A DNA stretch of 64,000 nt. It comes from Echinarachnius parma. Its lineage: Eukaryota > Echinodermata > Echinoidea > Clypeasteroida > Echinarachniidae. The stretch lies in assembly GCA_037951105.1 (NCBI GenBank), contig JBAMJV010002943.1:62001-126000 (forward strand), given 5' to 3'. The notes under the pieces were generated by a model. The model was not told the origin of the DNA. It did not search any database and worked only from the letters and a program-made list of their open reading frames with translations. Shown piece by piece: positions 1,105 through 26,708 of this stretch. Both the position numbers and the translations under genes were made by a program. The stretch's first letter is position 1. Each line of letters begins with the position of its first letter.

Positions 1105-4100
1105 ATACCCCGATCACCACATATGACAACCTTCCCCGCGAAGAACGCAAAGCTCTCACTTCTCTTTGAACCCGCATTTCCTTGGATATCAATGTACTCT
1201 TCGTTTGTTTATCATTCTCTGCATTGTTATGTTACATTGACACCATGTCTGACCATCTATCATTATTAATTTTCATAAACTCAGGAAAACAATGATCAAG
1301 GCCCTTAACTACCATTTTCACTAGGATAACTACAGATGTTACTCTCTTAGTCGCATCATAACCACAGGTCTCCTACTCAAGTGCAACCCCTCTCTCGGCA
1401 CACTCCCACTCGAACTGCAGAAACGTTGGAACCAGACCCTATTTGGAGCATCTGTCCAGTTGATTAACATACTCTCTCAACATTGTGCATCCTCTCTTGA
1501 TTAATTTGCAGTTGACATCACCAGACTGGAAAATGACCTACGCTATTGCTGTACCGATGCCCAGTGGCTCAAATACAATGATGAAATTGAATCTTGCCTT
1601 TCTACCCATAGGTCTGAACTCCTCCAACGCCGGAACCGGAAAATTGGCAATCTCATCAGGAAACGCTAAGGGACCGGCAGATTCACACAGCGCACCAGCA
1701 ACACAGACGTTTCTCCCACTCCCCAGCATAATCCTCTCTTCTTTCCAAAGGTCTCATGTTCTGCCCCACCCCACATGAAGTCCTCCAGATCGAACTCAAC
1801 CATGATCTCTCCACCTTCTACCGTACAATTCGCCTCAAGGAGTTCTTCGTCGATGAACCCCCTTCTGAACCTGAACCTTTCCGACAGAAAAGTAGCTGGG
1901 TTCCTCCCAAGAATAGAGTCCGGGCACTTAAAACCTACGTACAAGCAGTTAACTCACAAGTTCTCTCCTCAGATACTCACATCACCACACATGATAACCT
2001 CCACCGCGAAGAACGCAAAGCTCTCACTTCTCTCAAGAATAGGTCCGACATCGTCACCAAGCCAGCAGACAAAGGCTCAGCCGTCGTTGTCATGGACCAC
2101 CAACAGTATATCGATGAAGCCATGAAGCACCTTGACAACCGTTCGCACTACACACCACTTGATTCTGACCCCACCTCTGATTTCTCTCAACAGATCCAAC
2201 TGACTCTATAGACGATATGAAGGTTCGTGAGCATCACTCCGTCAAAGGACACAAATTTCTTTCTCCCACTAATGCCAAACCTGCCAGATTCTACCTTCTC
2301 CCCAAGATTCACAAACCAGGTAATCGAGGCCGCCTGATCCTTTCTGGTAACGGTTCACACACAGAGAACATCTCACTCTTTGTTGACCATCACATCAAAC
2401 CTCATGTCCCCTTAGCACCTTCATACATTCATGACACCCCTGACTTTTTTAGGAAACTTGAGGACATCAAGGAACAGATACCCGAGACTGCGATCATTGG
2501 CACTTTTGATGTTTCCTCTTTGTACACCAACATCCCCTTCGACGAAGGTATCACCGCATCATGCGAAGCCTTGGCTCAGAGTGGTCACACCAATCCCCCC
2601 ATCTCTGACATCAAATCTCTCATGTCCCATGTACTAACCAAAAACAACTTCACATTCTCTGACAGGCACTATCTACAGATATTTGGAACAGCCATGGGTC
2701 CCCGCATGGCCCTCTCATGTGCATGTCTCTTCATGCCCAAGCTGGAGCAGCAAATGTAAGACTCATCACCTTGCCGACCATGGATTTGGTGGCGCTACAT
2801 TGACGATGTCTTCTTCATCTGGACCAGCGATGAAGAGAGCCTACACACATTCATTGGCCACATTAATTCCTTCCACAGAACCATAAAGTTCACTTCTGAT
2901 TTCTCTCTAGACGAAACCCACTTCCTTGATGTCACCATCAAGAAGGAGAACGGCCAGATCGCCACCAGTCTCTACACCAAACCCACAGACACCCACCAGT
3001 ACCTCCATTCATCTAGCTGTCACCCCCGCCACTGCAAAACAGGTATTGCCTACAGCCAAGCCCTTCGACTCCGCCGCATCTGCTCCAAGGACCCTGACTT
3101 TTCCCTCCATGCCAGAAATCTCAAGACACACCTCACAGCCAGGGCCACAGTGCCAAAGCGGTTCATCTATCCATTAACAAAGTTCGTTTTCTCCCTAGAT
3201 CCGAGGTTCTAAAGGAGAAGACTCCCAACCAGAGCACCACTGTTGTCACACCCCTAGTAACCAACTTTTATCCCAACTTACCTCCCATCCGCCGCATCTT
3301 GACCAACAATCACCACATTCTTCACACTTCTGATCGCCTCCAACAGGCTGTCCCTGATGCTCCCATCCTAGCCTACATACGCCCTCGCAACCTAAAGGAC
3401 ATCATTGTTCGAGCTGAACTTCCCACCCCCATCAACAACCATTATCCCATACAGCAGGCACCTTAAAGTGCACCGCCGACAGATGCATTGTGTGTCAGAC
3501 ACATATCCATCAGGATGATACCTTCACCAGCCACTCATCTCTCACCATACCAAGGGCCACATCACTTGCACCACCACCAATGTTGTATATCGTATCACGT
3601 GCAGAGCCTGCGGCATCAAGTACGTAGGTGAAACTAGGAATACCCTCAAGAGACCCGTTTACGGACACAGATCTACCATTCACACCTCCAAACATGACAC
3701 TCCAGTGGGCAACCACTTCAACCTACCTAATCACTCCATTTCTGACATGATTCTACAGGGAATAGAATCTCTAGCTAACCGCCCGGACACACTCCGCTCC
3801 AGCAGAGAGAAGTATTGAATAAGACGTCTCTGCACTATTCATCCCCGTGGTCTTAACATCCAAGAAGGCAGTGATTAACCTTTGCTTCTCTCCCCTTCAT
3901 TGTCTGCACCACCATTTGTTTTGTTTTTACCCCCATATCGACACTTTACTTTGTTCTGCATACTATTTATGTTCTTATTTCCCATTTTATTTTCCCCATA
4001 TATCCATTTTGGTTTTCTTTGAGATCACATTATTTACACTGTCTCCTTACAACACACTGTCACCATTCATACACATAATTATGTTTATTTATAAATATGT

Positions 4101-4256
4101 TATAATTTTTGCATTCAATTTCTCTCGATAGCTACACTGTCCATAGACATGGTCTTATTAATATACATCCATATTCTCATCATGCATAGTTCCACCTCTA
4201 TTTTGAGCATATTGTTCCACCCCCTCTCATTTGTCTCTCCACCTCACCTCTGATGG
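1105..4256 (+). mobile_element. Penelope-like retroelement, degenerate copy 1
   Basis: A + strand element with a PLE N-terminal region, reverse transcriptase, GIY-YIG endonuclease and a long pyrimidine-rich 3' UTR. It is colinear with the two copies at 19.3-24.4 kb from about 2420 to the 3' UTR but extends further 5'. Positions about 1111-1170 are a shifted partial copy of the coding stretch at about 1980-2036, so the 5' part is rearranged. The 3' end is cut at about 4256, where the other copies continue for several hundred bases, and is replaced by poly-C repeats. Confidence 0.85.
1290..3878 (+). pseudogene. Broken PLE polyprotein (RT plus GIY-YIG)
   Basis: Homology runs through several frames. 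At 1300-1680 is a basic N-terminal region. At 1756-2211 comes the early RT block with a KPADKGSAVVV motif, ending in a TAG. From 2217 the frame holds FYLLPKIHKPG, motif A (FDVSSLYTNIP) and the motif B region, then a TAA at 2757-2759 where the other copies have Leu. YIDD follows at about 2797. A one-base loss near 3142 shifts the frame, about 10 bases are missing near 3535, and a Trp codon is TGA at 3815-3817 inside the GIY-YIG part. The last stop is at 3876-3878. PLE proteins of this type copy RNA and cut target DNA; this copy cannot be functional. Confidence 0.85.
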
Positions 4257-18300: not shown

Positions 18301-18317
18301 TATTGGTTTGTATATTC

Positions 18318-18650
18318 ATCCTCCACCATCATCATAATCACCACCCCCATCATCATCATCATCACCACCACCACCACCACCACCATTATCATCATCATCA
18401 CCATCATTACCACTACCACCATCATCATCACCACCAGCACCATCATCTTCATTGTTATCATCTTCATCCTCATCACAATATGTCATCATCATCATCATCA
18501 CCATTATCACCACCACCACCACCATCATGATCATCATTATTGCATCACGGTCACCATCATCATCACCACCACCACCATCATCATCAACACCATCACCACT
18601 CCCACCATCATCATCATCATCATCATCTTCATCATCATTCCTTCTCATTT
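18318..18650. repeat. CAT/CAC trinucleotide microsatellite
   Basis: About 330 bp of interleaved CAT, CAC and CCA triplets. The His, Ile, Ser or Asp-rich open frames on both strands come from the repeat and are not genes. Confidence 0.95.
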
Positions 18651-18659
18651 ATTAAAAGG

Positions 18660-19147
18660 AGTTTGTTTCTAAGTTTGTCTGTTTACAGGTGAAAATTTCC
18701 AAGAAATATTTAATAGTAGACATGCAGAATCCACATTCACGTACAAGTTTCTTTGCTTGCTGTTAAAAAAGAACTCATGTACATCATCAGGATTGTTGCT
18801 GTTACCTGTGTCATGGTTTGAAATCAAAATATAACTTTTATTTGAATACCTCTTTTCTCTTTATATGAAGAATTGTTGTTAACAAGAGTGTCACATCCGA
18901 AACACAAGCATTTTGTTAACTGCGGCACATCGGAAATGCGATGCCTCAAAAAGTCATGCAGGAAATCTGGTTCCTCTTTTCACTTTAATTCGCAGATTAA
19001 AACATAATGTTCACTTCTCATTTTCTATGCAAAAAACTACAGAAAATTGTTTAAAAAAAGATTCGAGGATTTGGAAATTTTCATCTTTGTTGACAAATTT
19101 GCTCAAAAAGCAGAAATATAAAAAAAAACAAGTGTGCCTTATGTCTG
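18660..19147. other. No recognisable feature
   Basis: AT-rich sequence. No exon, RNA gene or inverted repeat was supported. Confidence 0.35.
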
Positions 19148-19346
19148 CATATATTTCAAGTTCATACTTCTAGTAATCTAAATCCTGATATTTCATTTCA
19201 TTCACCATGGATACATAAATATGAAATATTAACTTTTATGTGAAAATGTTATAAATCAAACTAGGGACAAAACATTAATGAAATTAACTCCTGTCCATGT
19301 GGATATCAGGATTAGATTACTAGAAGTATGAACTTGAAAATATATG
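19148..19346. repeat. Inverted repeat of the target flank at the PLE junction
   Basis: 19148-19192 reappears almost exactly, reverse-complemented, at 19302-19346, with about 110 bp between. Both contain CTTCTAGTAATCTA and its complement. The second arm ends where the PLE terminus begins. Confidence 0.75.
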
Positions 19347-20253
19347 AGAGTCGTATACAGCCTAGCTTTCGATCCTAGCAGAATCTTCGTCAGGGCACAA
19401 ATGACAGTAACTACAGAAAAAACACAGAATATATACCAACATAAACACATGTATGGAAGGGGGGCTGGAAAGAGGAAAGGAGGCGGAGACACAAACCAAT
19501 GAAAGCAACTGTGAGTGGGTGAGTGTCGAGACTGCTTGACCAATCAGGTAAAAACAGGCATTGGTGGGTCCTTAAGTGGCTGCAGTCAAAGAAAATGTGA
19601 TGAGAGTGTAAGGCTTAGAGAAGAATAGAGGTAGGGAGGATCAAAGAAATAAATCAAGAAATGGAAAGAGACATGTGAACAAAAGACAGTTGATCAGGTG
19701 TGGGAGTGCACTGGGGCATTGAGAGGGGAGGAACAATAGAGGGGATTATGAGTGTAGGGGATGGGAGGAGAGGATTAGGACAAAGAAAGTGAAGTGAAGT
19801 GTGTTGCAGGATCGGATGAATAGGATAGGCGAGATCAAAGGACAGGGAGTTAAAAAGAGATAAAGAGATAGTGAACAAAAGGAAGCCTAAATAGGTAGGT
19901 GATCAGAGGGAAGGTGGAGAGACAAATGAGGGTGGAACAATATGATCAAAATGGAGGTGGAACTGTGCATGATGAGAATGTGGATGTATATGAATAAGCC
20001 CATGTCTATGGACAGTGTACCTATAGAGAGAAATTAAATGCAAAAAGTATAACATATTAATAAACTAACATGATTATGTGTATGAATGGTGACAGTGTAT
20101 ATAACGTAATCTCAAAGAAAACTAAAATGAATATATGGGGAAAATAAAATGAGAAATAAGAATATGAATAGTATGTGGAACAAAGTAAAGTGTCGATATG
20201 GGGGGTGAAAACAAACAAATGGTGGTGCAGACGATGAAGGGGAGATGCAAAGG

Positions 20254-21726
20254 TTAATCACTGCCTTCTTGAATGTTGAGACCACGGGGACGAATGGTGC
20301 AGAGACGTCTTATCCAATACTTTTCTCTGCTGGAGCGGAGTGTGTCCGGGCGGTTACCTAGAGATTCTATTCCCTGTAGAATCATGTCAGAAATGGAGTG
20401 ATTAGGTAGGTTGAAGTGGTTGCCGACTGGGGCGTCATGTTTGGAGGTGTGGATGGTGGATCTGTGTCCGTAAAAGCGTCTCTTGAGGGTGTTCCTGGTT
20501 TCGCCTACGTACTGCATGCCACAGACTCTGCACGTGATAAGATATACAACATTGGTGGTGGTGCATGTGATGTGGCCCTTGGTATGGTGAGAGATGTTGT
20601 TGGAGTGGCTGGTGAAGGTTTCATCCTGATGGATATGTACCTGACACACAATGCATCTGTCGGCGGTGCACTTAAAGGTGCCTTGCTGTATGGGAGAGGG
20701 GTTGTTATTGGGGGTGGGAAGTTTAGCTCGAACAATGTGGTCCTTGAGGTTGCGAGGGCGTCTGTAGGCTAGGATGGGGGCATCAGGGACAGCCTGTTGG
20801 AGGCGATCAGAAGTGTGAAGAATGTGGTGATTGTTAGTCAATATGCGACGGAGGGGAGGTAAGTTGGGATGAAAGGTGGTCACTAGGGGTGTGACAACAG
20901 TGGTGTTCTGGTTGGGAGTCTTCTTCTTCAGAACCTCGGATCTGGGGAGAGAACGAACTTTGTTAATGGATAGATGAACTGCTTTGGCACTGTGGCCCCT
21001 GGCAGTGAGGTGTGTCTTGAGATTTCTGGCATGGAGGGAAAAGTCAGAGTCCTTGGAGCAGATGCGGCGGAGTCGAAGGGCTTGGCTGTAAGCAATACCT
21101 GTTTTGCAGTGGCGGGGGTGACAGCTAGATGAATGGAGGTACTGGTGGGTGTCTGTGGGCTTGGTGTAGAGACTGGTGGTGATCTGGCTGTTCTCCTTCT
21201 TGATGGTGACATCAAGGAAGTGGGTTTCATCTAGGGAGAAGTCAGAAGTGAACTTTATGGTTCTGTGGAAGGAATTCATGTGGTCAATGAATGTGTGTAG
21301 GCTCTCTTCATTGCTGGTCCAGATGAAGAAGACATCGTCAATGTAGCGCCACCAAATCCATGGGCGGCAAGGTGCTGAGTCTAACATTTGCTGCTCCAGC
21401 TTGGTCATGAAGAGACATGCAAATGAGGGTGCCATGCGGGTACCCATGGCTGTTCCAAATATCTGTAGATAGTGCCTGTCAGAGAATGTGAAGTTGTTTT
21501 TGGTTAGTACATGGGACATGAGAGATTTGATGTCAGAGATGGGAGGATTGGTGTGACCACTCTGAGCCAAGGCTTCGCATGATGCGGTGATACCTTCGTC
21601 GAAGGGGATGTTGGTGTACAAAGAGGAAACATCAAAAGTTCCAATGATCGCAGTCTCAGGTGTCTGTTCCTTAATGTCCTCGAGTTTCCTAAGAAAGTCA
21701 GGGGTGTCAGGGGTGTCATGAATGTA
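20254..21726 (-). CDS. PLE reverse transcriptase / GIY-YIG endonuclease, 5'-truncated (left arm)
   Basis: An open frame of about 490 codons. RT motif A (FDVSSLYTNIP, about residue 36), motif B (AMGTRMAPSFACLF, about 100) and the catalytic YIDD (about 132) come first. A Cys/His linker (CTADRCIVC, then H and C residues, about 355-395) follows. Last is a GIY-YIG domain (VVYLITC, QYVGETRNTLKRRFYGHRS, about 396-450, with HFNLPNH). The N-terminal RT blocks seen in copy 1 (DKG, LPKIHKP) are absent because the element stops at the palindrome centre, so enzyme activity is unlikely. The nominal ATG lies within the palindrome and is fortuitous. Proteins of this family prime on nicked target DNA and insert retroelements. 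Confidence 0.9.
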   Translation of the reverse strand, partial: YIHDTPDTPDFLRKLEDIKEQTPETAIIGTFDVSSLYTNIPFDEGITASCEALAQSGHTNPPISDIKSLMSHVLTKNNFTFSDRHYLQIFGTAMGTRMAPSFACLFMTKLEQQMLDSAPCRPWIWWRYIDDVFFIWTSNEESLHTFIDHMNSFHRTIKFTSDFSLDETHFLDVTIKKENSQITTSLYTKPTDTHQYLHSSSCHPRHCKTGIAYSQALRLRRICSKDSDFSLHARNLKTHLTARGHSAKAVHLSINKVRSLPRSEVLKKKTPNQNTTVVTPLVTTFHPNLPPLRRILTNNHHILHTSDRLQQAVPDAPILAYRRPRNLKDHIVRAKLPTPNNNPSPIQQGTFKCTADRCIVCQVHIHQDETFTSHSNNISHHTKGHITCTTTNVVYLITCRVCGMQYVGETRNTLKRRFYGHRSTIHTSKHDAPVGNHFNLPNHSISDMILQGIESLGNRPDTLRSSREKYWIRRLCTIRPRGLNIQEGSD

Positions 21727-23190
21727 TACATTCATGACACCCCTGACTTTCTTAGGAAACTCGAGGACATTAAGGAACAGACACCTGAGACTGCGATCAT
21801 TGGAACTTTTGATGTTTCCTCTTTGTACACCAACATCCCCTTCGACGAAGGTATCACCGCATCATGCGAAGCGTTGGCTCAGAGTGGTCACACCAATCCC
21901 CCCATCTCTGACATCAAATCTCTCATGTCCCATGTACTAACCAAAAACAACTTCACATTCTCTGACAGGCACTATCTACAGATATTTGGAACAGCCATGG
22001 GTACCCGCATGGCACTCTCATTTGCATGTCTCTTCATGACCAAGCTGGAGCAGCAAATGTTAGACTCAGCACCTTGCCGCCCATGGATTTGGTGGCGCTA
22101 CATTGACGATGTCTTCTTCATCTGGACCAGCGATGAAGAGAGCCTACACACATTCATTGACCACATGAATTCCTTCCACAGAACCATAAAGTTCACTTCT
22201 GACTTCTCCCTAGATGAAACCCACTTCCTTGATGTCACCATCAAGAAGGAGAACAGCCAGATCACCACTAGTCTATACACCAAGCCCACAGACACCCACC
22301 AGTACCTCCATTCATCTAGCTGTCACCCCCGCCACTGCAAAACAGGTATTGCTTACAGCCAAGCCCTTCGACTCCGCCGCATCTGCTCCAAGGACTCTGA
22401 CTTTTCCCTCCATGCCAGAAATCTCAAGACACACCTCACTGCCAGGGGCCACAGTGCCGAATCAGTTCATCTATCCATTAACAAAGTTCGTTCTCTCCCC
22501 AGATCCGAGGTTCTGAAGAAGAAGACTCCCAACCAGAGCACCACTGTTGTCACACCCCTAGTGACCACCTTTCATCCCAACTTACCTCCCCTCCGTCGCA
22601 TATTGACTAACAATCACCACATTCTTCACACTTCTGATCGCCTCCAACAGGCTGTCCCTGATGCCCCCATCCTAGCCTACAGACGCCCTCGCAACCTCAA
22701 GGACCACATTGTTCGAGCTGAACTTCCCACCCCCAATAACAACCCCTCTCCCATACAGCAAGGCACCTTTAAGTGCACCGCCGACAGATGCATTGTGTGT
22801 CAGGTACATATCCATCAGGATGAAACCTTCACCAGCCACTCCAACAACATCTCTCACCATACCAAGGGCCACATCACATGCACCACCACCAATGTTGTAT
22901 ATCTTATCACGTGCAGAGTCCGTGGCATGCAGTACGTAGGCGAAACCAGGAACACCCTCAAGAGACGCTTTTACGGACACAGATCCACCATCCACACCTC
23001 CAAACATGACGCCCCAGTCGGCAACCACTTCAACCTACCTAATCACTCCATTTCTGACATGATTCTACAGGGAATAGAATCTCTAGGTAACCGCCCGGAC
23101 ACACTCCGCTCCAGCAGAGAAAAGTATTGGATAAGACGTCTCTGCACCATTCATCCCCGTGGTCTCAACATTCAAGAAGGCAGTGATTAA
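21727..23190 (+). CDS. PLE reverse transcriptase / GIY-YIG endonuclease, 5'-truncated (right arm)
   Basis: The mirror partner of the left arm: same domain order, also uninterrupted to the stop at 23188-23190. Differences I can read include Leu for Pro in motif B (GTRMALSF) and Arg for the second Cys of CRVCGMQYVG in the GIY-YIG core. The catalytic YIDD is intact. The RT N terminus is missing as in the other arm. Two open frames this long and this similar suggest the palindrome is fairly young. Confidence 0.9.
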   Translation, partial: YIHDTPDFLRKLEDIKEQTPETAIIGTFDVSSLYTNIPFDEGITASCEALAQSGHTNPPISDIKSLMSHVLTKNNFTFSDRHYLQIFGTAMGTRMALSFACLFMTKLEQQMLDSAPCRPWIWWRYIDDVFFIWTSDEESLHTFIDHMNSFHRTIKFTSDFSLDETHFLDVTIKKENSQITTSLYTKPTDTHQYLHSSSCHPRHCKTGIAYSQALRLRRICSKDSDFSLHARNLKTHLTARGHSAESVHLSINKVRSLPRSEVLKKKTPNQSTTVVTPLVTTFHPNLPPLRRILTNNHHILHTSDRLQQAVPDAPILAYRRPRNLKDHIVRAELPTPNNNPSPIQQGTFKCTADRCIVCQVHIHQDETFTSHSNNISHHTKGHITCTTTNVVYLITCRVRGMQYVGETRNTLKRRFYGHRSTIHTSKHDAPVGNHFNLPNHSISDMILQGIESLGNRPDTLRSSREKYWIRRLCTIHPRGLNIQEGSD

Positions 23191-24388
23191 CCTTTGCATC
23201 TCCCCTTCATCGTCTGCACCACCATTTGTTTGTTTTGACCCCCCCCCCCCCCCCCCCCCCATATCGACACTTTACTTTGTTCCACATACTATTCATATTC
23301 TTATTTCCCATTTTAGTTTCCTTTGAGATTACGTTATATACACTGTCACCATTCATACACATAATCATGTTAGTTTATTAATATGTTATACTTTTTGCAT
23401 TTAATTTCTCTTTATAGGTACACTGTCCATAGACATGGGCTTATTCATATACATCCACATTCTCATCATGCACAGTTCCACCTCCATTTTGATCATATTG
23501 TTCCACCCTCATTTGTCTCTCCACCTTCCCTCTGATCACCTACCTATTTAGGCTTCCTTTTGTTCACTATCTATTTATCTCTTTTTAACTCCCTGTCCTT
23601 TGATCTCGCCTATCCTATTCATCCGATCCTGCAACACACTTCACTTCACCTTCTTTGTCCTAATCCTCTCCTCCCATCCCCTACACTCATAATCCCCTCT
23701 ATTGTTCCTCCCATCTCAATGCCCCAGTGCACTCCCACACCTGATCAACTGTCTTTTGTTCACATGTCTCTTTCCATTTCTTGATTTATTTCTTTGATCC
23801 TCCCTACTTCCTGTTCCATTCATTTGTCCCTGTTGCTTTCCCACTGATCGCCTCATCACCCACATGTCTTCATCCTTTTCACCTTCTCCTTTGAACTCGC
23901 ATATCCTATTCATCGGATCCTGCAACACACACCACTTCACTTTCTTTGTCCTAATCCACTCATTCCCATCCCTCACACTGATAATCCACCTCTATTGTTC
24001 TCCCCTCTCAGTGCCCCAGTGCACTCCCACACCTCATTAACTGTCTTTTGTTTACATGTCGCTTTCCAGGCCTTGATTTCCTTCTTTGATACTGCCTACC
24101 TCTATTCTTCTCTAAGCCTTTCACTCTCATCACATTTCCTCTGACTGCAGCCAATCAAGGACCCATCTTTGCCTGTTTGACCTGATTGGTCAAGCAGTCT
24201 TGACACTCTCCCACTCACAGCTGCTTTCATTCTGTTGTGTCTCCGCATCCTTTCCTCCCCCAGCCCCCCATCCACACATGTGTTAATGTTGGTATATATT
24301 CTGTGTTTTTTTTGGTAGAACTGTCATATTGCCCTGACGAAGATCCTGCTAGGATTGAAAGCTAGGCTGTATACGACTCTCATTTTAC

Positions 24389-24840
24389 CTCATTGGCGAT
24401 TTTGTATTTTTCAAATTTATGCAATAGCGTTAGCTAACGCTTTTGAAATAATGATTTTCGATGATAGTTATCTTCATACCGAAGGGACATTTGAAAAAAG
24501 GGTAACCCTATTGTATTCTTCTCTTACCATAAGCTAAACAACACAGCAGAAGAGAACTGAGGAAGCTCTAAGTAATTTTCGTGGAGTTAGACACTTTACA
24601 TGGATGTTTTTAAGTTTCCATATTGTACATGGGCGGGTTGCAGCAATATGCATCAAGTGACCTAATGATTAAATGTTTGCCCGTATGCAATATAATTTTG
24701 CCCTAGTATGACGTACTTTGCCCAAATAATATATTTTGCCCGAATATCCTCGGTCGAGAAAGAATAGGGCGCTAAGTTATTTGTTTATACTCAGGAGATA
24801 ACCATGTTTTATACTTGCGAACCATATTCTATATTCCAAA
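24389..24840. other. No recognisable feature
   Basis: AT-rich flank of the PLE palindrome. No exon or repeat was supported. Confidence 0.35.
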
Positions 24841-24844
24841 TTCA

Positions 24845-26135
24845 GATCTCATTTACCCTGATAAGTCTTTTTTACATTATATATGTTTGTTTTGGTGTTC
24901 AAAATAGTTGAAGTATAGTAAGAAATATAATAAACAACACAACAATAAAATACATCAGTTAAAAAAGAACAGAGAAATACATGAGAAATTATGAAAACAA
25001 TATAATACATAAGGAAGAACCTGGCTTTTTCACAATTTTTGTCGTATTATTATTCCAAATGTTCCTAAGATGGTGGGCATTTCCACGGGAATGTGGACAT
25101 GAAATGAAAAACACAATTGGCTCTATTTCAAATCCTACTTAGTTTGTCTGCATTATTATTTCATGAAACGTGATCCTATAATTATATCTTTCAGTTCACA
25201 TGTTTTGTTTAATTTTCGGCTGTCTCCTTATAGGGGAAACGGAAACCATACGCGAAACTCCACATATGGGACTGACCTGTGCAAATTTTAGGAAAATCTT
25301 CATAATATTTTGTATATTTTCTGGCATTTGAATTATTTAAGGGACAAAATTGGATGTCTGATAGTCAAGGAACATGTTCATAATAAAATGTTAGTATTTG
25401 TATTGCTCTAAAGTATATTTTGTTAGGAATCAAAACTTCTGGACAACCCTTAACGTGAGTTACCGATGTTTCTGCATCGAACAGTTGTTCCATTATTGTT
25501 TGTAAATTTGTTCAATACTGACTCATAGAACACATACAAATGTCACATTAGCATACAATATTTGGGTAGGATCAATATATAGATGATGCTTTTCACATTA
25601 AAGTGGTTACTGAATTTTGGCCATGTCTTTTTTGTTTGTAACGCGAGTTACCGAATAGGATTCTTAATCAAAGGTTCTTAAAGATGGCTCTGAAATTTGT
25701 TGGTGTGTGTGTTTTCTAGTTAGTACACATCTACTTAATCCTTAGTAGTACAAGTAGCCTACAGTTCTATAGAATAACGGAGTTACAACACAATGAAGTA
25801 GTCAATGTCACCGTGGAATTGCCCATATATGTAAACAAACAAAACACACTGTTTACTTATGGAGAATATATGATTTATGTGTAAACATATTAGTTGTATG
25901 ACCTTATTTGCATCAATGACCATAATTATGCAAATTAATGAAATTTGCACAAACTAAGAATCACCATTGTATTATATACATTTCACTTATCATGCGTAAT
26001 TGTGTACCGCGATCGGCAGAGATCTTATATGGGGGGGGGGGGGGGGGGGGGGGCATAATGCCATCAGCCCCGCACCCCCGCCGCCCCCCCCCCCCCCCCC
26101 CCCTTACCCGGCCGTAGGAAGCCATAAATACTTTG
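24845..26135 (-). mobile_element. Inverted copy of the element at 28.98-29.78 kb
   Basis: Matches the right-hand copy in reverse: 24890-25080 with 29290-29480 and 25860-26130 with about 29005-29250, including CACTTATCATGCG against CGCATGATAAGTG and GGCCGTAGGAAG against CTTCCTACGGCC. It carries a poly-G of about 22 and a poly-C of about 20. 25090-25860 is extra relative to the other copy. Confidence 0.65.
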
Positions 26136-26424
26136 TCGTTTGTAATTGTGTATACCCTTCGAGCATGGTAAAGGTATTACTATTATTTTGTACCGTAATC
26201 GTAATGGTGCGGGTTTGGGGTAATACATTTCAGTTTGACCAATACTCAACTATTCCTTTAATGTTATGATATATATTTCATACATGCCTGTACGGAAACT
26301 TACTTAGGTAATGGATAGACGTAACGTCCTTCTTTCACGATGATAATGTAAAATGTTGTAATATTGTAGATGTATTTCCCGAATTAGACGTTCTTAATAG
26401 CTAACGTTTACTTTTCCTCCACAG

Positions 26425-26708
26425 TTGGTGATGTGTCGCTGATTTATGAAACACGCGGATGTGGATTCAACGAGAATCGCTGCATAGGGGGCAGCGAACT
26501 TTCTTCCAACGTGGATGACACGGGAGCATCTTTAGCTGACCTGGTGGCTACATATTACCCGGCCGTGGGATTGAGCTTCACTAGTGGAGAAGGCAGCGTG
26601 TGCATCTGCAACAGTGATCTGTGCAACAGTGGTGCGCGCGTGCGAGCCCCGATCCTGTGCTCGCTTATCCTTGCTCTCGTGTCCGTCGGGTTCGCGCGAC
26701 TCGCTTAA
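26425..26708 (+). CDS. Last exon of a Ly6/LU-domain, probably GPI-anchored protein
   Basis: Acceptor CTTTTCCTCCACAG, then a phase-1 exon running to TAA at 26706-26708. The reading (V)GDVSLIYETRGCGF continues to CICNSDLCN, the C-x-C...CN ending of Ly6/uPAR (three-finger) domains, then a hydrophobic tail of about 20 residues (ILCSLILALVSVGF) typical of a GPI-attachment signal. It aligns with the last exon of the Ly6 gene at 33.1-36.7 kb: same phase, same VG start and equivalent cysteines. I found no exon carrying the first half of the domain or a signal peptide on this strand upstream, so it is either an orphaned exon or the end of a gene with very long introns. GPI-anchored Ly6 proteins act at the outer cell surface. 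Confidence 0.7.

Follow-up and report, generated by a model that had tools for sequence, protein, structure and literature searches.

The two inverted arms of a Penelope-like element (PLE) that form a palindrome in the window are best explained by one insertion, a reading supported by the relatives of the element and by the arms themselves. The window is the whole 64,000-nucleotide stretch that was analysed, contig C2942:62001-126000 in the 1.2-Gb host genome surveyed, and position 1 is its first letter. The shorter inverted repeat directly outside the left arm belongs, on the evidence of other genomic copies, to a palindromic foldback transposon. Neither the palindrome nor the flank inverted repeat is a chance match.

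Geometry of the palindrome and its composite right arm

The PLE locus comprises the following parts.

19345..21726, minus strand: left PLE arm, subfamily A; 3′ end complete without a tail, 5′-truncated, encoding the C-terminal part of RT and GIY-YIG
21701..21718: 9-bp tandem duplication (GGGGTGTCA twice) in the left arm beside the axis, missing from contig C807
21706..21747: perfect dyad at the join of the arms, with 2 bp (AT) common to the native sequences
21727..23807, plus strand: right PLE arm, subfamily A, from the same source as the left arm and without its own last ~280 nt
23805..23807: TAC, common to the A and B sequences at their junction (from comparison of A with B)
23805..24382, plus strand: 3′ end of a different and most simply older PLE copy (B), 5′-truncated, recognised from separate A and B matches elsewhere and from private substitutions
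24383..24417, plus strand: decayed tail of the B copy, with ~26 nt missing inside; right limit approximate
24416..24613, plus strand: piece of a further dispersed repeat, starting at the PLE tail partway into the repeat, since other copies reach further upstream

Two 5′-truncated PLE copies do meet head to head at a perfect dyad, as the preliminary description had reported, and the 24 bp given there for the dyad proved too short, the perfect match extending over 42 bp (21 nt in each arm, with zero spacer or loop). The palindrome is thus real, but its right arm combines two PLE copies. Compared over 2060 sites, the arms are 20 substitutions apart; they also differ by the 9-bp duplication, a gap of 22 bp and a C-run, and their identity of ~99% holds to about 23807. 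Here the simple mirror symmetry of the right arm ends, and 23805-24383 is ~88% identical to the outer end of the left arm at an offset of ~290 bp. The native sequence at the join point reads CCTTCATACATTC in two genomic copies and CCTTCAAACATTC in a third; the window arms are joined between native ...CCTTC and ATAC, with the bases AT common to both (a 2-bp overlap), and both stop at the identical base. Among 40 loci scored of 104 candidates, the dyad was matched in full length only at the window locus, and partly at C807. An assembly or whole-read fold-back artefact is unlikely, as the arms differ from each other, the outer flanks are not mirrored, and C807 concurs apart from its own changes. 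An Rfam scan gave five sub-threshold matches only, four of which were hairpin microRNA models at the dyad, and a protein search with the peptide read through the dyad returned four candidates, none of which was scored.

On the left, 10.8 kb of that second contig, C807, match the window at 99.5% identity, and on the right 3.2 kb match at 99.6%. The contig has the same foldback fragment, left arm, B piece and both outer ends, as well as part of the dyad. It is probably the other haplotype, though it may be a recent duplication. It lacks the 9-bp duplication and, from the part of the right arm nearest the axis, ~1.07 kb; 21 bp of palindrome are left, and here too the dyad is loop-free. Because the left-right divergence of the window arms is alike on both sides of the C807 breakpoint (10/1080 and 10/980 sites), the right-arm loss appears to be a derived change, of the kind that an unstable palindrome should undergo; the same figures argue against C807 as the ancestral state. 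At window positions 25974-25977 (L010), C807 carries an insert of ~1.67 kb with 4 bp matching on both sides.

The join of A to B was located with the query 23700-23960. Of 566 candidates 40 loci were scored, and only the window and C807 matched this query end to end; elsewhere each half has separate matches of its own, in the subfamilies named A and B. Of 502 sites in the B piece, 34 (6.8%) carry private substitutions; the range in the 39 other 3′ segments compared is 0-1.8%, with the left arm at 0.8%. Most simply, B would be an older resident PLE copy, although its high divergence could instead reflect a PLE subfamily missing from the sample. The right arm's own A end is lost, and no target duplication was found at the window, where the longest string common to the outer flanks is 4 nt; the ends at this site therefore cannot by themselves demonstrate one insertion.

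Two further features of the window were noted. Positions 2417-4254 hold a further PLE copy with about 90-92% identity to the arms, and positions 26388-26705 hold an open frame without a Pfam match, whose CxCxxxxCN ending is reminiscent of three-finger (Ly6-type) proteins.

Same-source arms and other head-to-head pairs

The arms belong to an EN-containing PLE. Pfam RVT_1 was matched in the two arms with E values of 1.2e-5 and 1.3e-7, the first of which is below the curated cut-off (25.6 vs 29.6 bits), and GIY-YIG was above its cut-off in both. PLE-type relatives of the arm proteins reach 86% identity, and the closest among those with a named source come from echinoderms (Lytechinus variegatus, Apostichopus japonicus and Diadema antillarum, among others), so that the host is probably an echinoderm. 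In 15 of the 16 aligned relatives that reach this position, a serine directly precedes the initial tyrosine of the arms; scans of viral_contigs found no relatives. Along with RT and the C-terminal GIY-YIG, the family has tandem (C3373) and inverted partial copies and, elsewhere in the genome, an optional ~60-nt 3′ tail and flank strings of 13-15 nt in common. Other PLEs are reported to have a hammerhead ribozyme in the pLTR; here Rfam gave no hammerhead at E<=1 and the ends folded no better than shuffles, and a CTGACGA...GAAA core is visible by eye.

The window arms come from the same source. They have six private substitutions in common and no site at which they split between variants known from other copies, and each of their 20 differences is private to one arm (6 left, 14 right). 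Partners at other loci likewise share private substitutions (four at C2768, three at C4477, one at C2472 and two at the tandem C3373) and show no splitting sites. In 342 non-partner comparisons, which are not mutually independent, none had three or more private sites in common and nine had at least one, with a splitting site in 256 and none in 86. Gene conversion between the arms could mimic part of the shared-change signal. In the B-type pairs C6561 and C12745/C8697 the partners are not clearly closest to each other, and the same-source claim therefore rests on the A-type pairs. Two independent A insertions were rejected on the shared private changes together with the common stop. From the arm length, the chance that two independent stops fall on one base is estimated at about 1 in 2,000, and a common cause such as one broken RNA is therefore likely.

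Elsewhere in the genome, head-to-head PLE pairs lie at C6561, C12745/C8697, C4477, C2472 and C2768. C12745 and C8697 share a flank string and were therefore counted as one, giving five independent pairs with the window excluded; the window was also left out of the tally of tails, its tail belonging to B. These pairs are the products of single events: in all five, both 3′ ends point outward, exactly one end has a tail of ~60 nt, and 13-15 nt are common to the outer flanks, compared with 3-7 nt in 30 mismatched flank pairings that served as a control. An extra short tail-like match lies ~1 kb outside the pair at C8697. Joins were inspected at five loci, with a 2-bp overlap at the window and C2472, ~1 bp at C12745, a 7-nt filler at C2768, and one extra base with a 12-bp repeat at C4477. 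The arms of C2768, at about 2.24 and 2.04 kb, are near the window arms in length and stop 176 nt apart.

Fourteen A loci that were newly fetched yielded one head-to-head pair, one tandem and 12 copies that look single within the stretch read, with a tail in some and not in others. The tandem (C3373:335950-341000, L058) consists of a long PLE and a short 5′-truncated copy in the same orientation, ~1.5 kb apart, and from their two common private substitutions direct partners too may share one source. Another arrangement was seen at L026, L027 and L033, which have the same 3′ flank. Two pairs of inverted repeats, of ~120 and ~170 bp, span the PLE there as P Q PLE P′ Q′, a layout that is not a simple palindrome.

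Foldback origin of the flank inverted repeat

Outside the left PLE arm, three features make up the flank.

18650..19346, minus strand: fragment of a palindromic foldback element of ~1.6 kb, corresponding to positions 1426 to 722 of the L021 copy and cut at the PLE edge (from 40 scored host loci and 12 fetched contiguous copies)
19148..19192, plus strand: left member of the flank inverted repeat, the inner end of one foldback arm
19302..19346, minus strand: right-hand member of the same repeat, formed by the inner end of the second foldback arm, with a 2-nt overlap with the PLE terminus

The inverted repeat described earlier outside the left terminus is real, with 45 columns, no substitutions, two 1-bp indels and an E value of about 1e-13 within the window. 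We searched the host genome with positions 18950-19343 and scored 40 loci of 257 candidates, and the 45-bp inverted repeat was present in all 40. In every one of the 38 copies other than the window and C807, the second arm runs further and abuts the first (read from coordinates). Twelve copies were fetched, of which 11 are single palindromes of ~1.5-1.7 kb and the twelfth, L022, carries ~0.4 kb of inserted sequence in one arm; none of the 12 contained a PLE match. Intact copies begin with CAAAGACACTACAAGGGG and finish in its inverse, and several are flanked by 7-bp target duplications, for example GTAACAG and GTAATGT (read by eye). Relative to the L021 copy, the window fragment is shorter by 206 bp on one side and by 721 bp on the opposite side, where its edge is the PLE junction. 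A CAT-type trinucleotide array (18312-18649) abuts the start of the fragment at 18650, where the outer foldback end is missing.

Judged from these copies, what had been presumed to be host target flank is a dispersed repeat, namely the inner ends of the foldback's own arms, and it predates the PLE insertion, because the 38 other scored copies all carry the same repeat with abutting arms. The proposed link between the two inversions therefore falls, and with it the claim that the insertion had inverted and duplicated its target flank. The inverted flank copy also lies on the same side as the flank, not past the other PLE arm. That the flank repeat occurs without a PLE was found at paralogous sites (12/12 fetched foldback copies), not in an empty allele; no allele without the PLE at the window site was found in the host genome. 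What stands of the single event put forward in the preliminary description is its application to the two PLE arms, through the target duplications and tails of their relatives, the shared private changes and the common stop; it does not extend to the flank repeat.

Galileo, in the part of its description cited here, is a foldback-like member of the P superfamily whose terminal inverted repeats are very long and whose target duplications mostly measure 7 bp (PMC4168063). The element here has long terminal inverted repeats, as 1.5-1.7 kb palindromes in 11/12 fetched copies, with 7-bp duplications read by eye, and we liken it to Galileo in these two features without claiming membership.

Inverted copying of target flanks at a PLE junction seems to have occurred in this genome, at C7365 and not at the window, as far as comparison among repeat copies can tell. 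At C7365:15034-17646 (L028; L051:1035-1280), a 5′-truncated PLE lies between two copies of TTGTTTTATAAAT, a 13-nt target duplication, and at its 5′ junction, between the left copy and the PLE, lie an inverted right flank (58 bp) and an inverted left flank (55 bp), both ~98% identical to their sources. These inverted flanks were absent from the 39 other scored copies of the host sequence. The host sequence is a dispersed repeat, so that these comparisons use paralogous copies: the right-flank segment lies directly downstream in plain orientation in 33 of 39 other scored places, every match of the left-flank segment is at its normal place (36 matches, as read), and C7365 alone matched the query end to end, against the 39 other scored places.

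Course of events and its alternatives

The course of events that we consider probable is a single insertion of A into the foldback element, two joined cDNAs, and a later deletion that fused A to B. A subfamily A PLE would have inserted once, into one arm of the resident palindromic foldback transposon, giving two minus-strand cDNAs. Each would have been primed from its own end of the cut, and a join between their element-5′ ends would have linked the two, as in the other pairs of the genome. Both cDNAs would derive from the same source and stop at one base. The simplest cause would be a single broken template RNA whose 5′ end both had reached, and on joining this common stop would produce an exact palindrome with a 2-bp overlap and no loop. 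Later, a deletion with 3-bp microhomology would have fused the 3′UTR of the right arm to the nearby older B copy. What remained of the foldback arm would have gone with it, together with the terminal part of the right arm and whatever target duplication there was; this one deletion would explain all three losses as well as the out-of-register PLE junction. A point against this course is that in other pairs the two stops differ, as at C2768.

Two stops at the same base could also stem from a hairpin or from a later event at the DNA level. Under self-priming, a single template would fold back and be copied as a hairpin to give the palindrome, and the product would then be joined to the resident B. 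Same-source arms and a common stop are what such a hairpin would leave, and it would also yield the unequal arm lengths of the other pairs. For EN-containing Penelope elements of Adineta vaga with inverted pLTRs, self-priming on an antisense template is the explanation preferred in the portion of the publication cited here, which offers it as the origin of head-to-head PLE repeats (PMC3846280). However, the dyad is loop-free in both the window and C807, and a hairpin copy should have the same 3′ end on both sides, whereas the tail is one-sided in 5/5 other pairs; we consider self-priming unlikely.

A later inverted duplication of DNA would start from a single A already in place, of which repair or replication made an inverted copy that became joined to B. 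One break would then account for the missing duplication as well as for the dyad and the composite nature of the right arm. This course is quite improbable, as the break would have to fall exactly on the 5′ edge of the element, and the step is superfluous where head-to-head pairs with target duplications already arise as insertion products of the PLE.

In a further course, A and B RNAs would have been used in one insertion, with B copied first at the right end before the enzyme jumped to A, and the B fragment would be a simultaneous partner. A tailed B on the right and an untailed A on the left would amount to one tail, like the other pairs, and 3 bp are common at the A/B junction. Given the count of private substitutions, which with the decayed tail makes B look older than the left arm, and with no target duplication found, we regard this course as very unlikely. 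Least tenable, and almost certainly wrong, is the earlier model in which template switching or hairpin priming made the PLE palindrome and the inverted flank in one event. In its favour, the two inversions are real and adjacent, and at C7365 the PLE junction does carry both flanks in inverted copy; against it, the abutting inverted repeat is present in all the other scored foldback copies and, in the fetched ones, without a PLE.

The single insertion with two joined cDNAs also bears comparison with known systems. The Adineta vaga elements, as presented in the section of that study cited here, resemble those described here in having RT and GIY-YIG, a head-to-head inverted partner, palindromes at inverted junctions, an optional tail on one inverted pLTR and short target duplications (PMC3846280). 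The window differs from that description in its arms of ~2.1 kb of ORF and 3′UTR, their same-base ends and shared private changes, and the fusion of its outer right end to an older copy. PAc, a purified PLE protein from Anolis, extends both target strands and starts reverse transcription at two adjacent RNA sites (PMC11167929), which fits the model of two cDNAs, and two such internal starts offer a source for one tailed and one untailed end. That system differs in being a purified protein on short templates in vitro, and inverted pairs are not its subject in the part cited here.

More generally, PLE insertion may be two-ended. Both ends of a staggered cut would prime a cDNA each, starting at the two sites where RT initiates on one RNA, so that one tailed and one untailed end result, and the converging cDNAs would be end-joined. 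A shared 5′ end of the RNA would give an exact, loop-free palindrome, as in the window, and a growing end could switch to flanking DNA and leave inverted copies of both flanks, as at C7365. Two cDNAs, each primed at its own cut end, fit the one-tail rule, the duplications and the joins; on the full generalisation our judgement is evenly balanced.

Head-to-head PLE insertions are a known kind, of which a loop-free exact palindrome with same-source evidence is a useful variant. The locus also carries a caution, in that an inverted repeat beside an insertion may not have been made by the insertion, as the target can be a foldback element. For the origin of inverted PLE pairs, the same-source arms, the one-tail pairs with target duplications and the loop-free palindrome suit two initiations from one RNA better than a hairpin.
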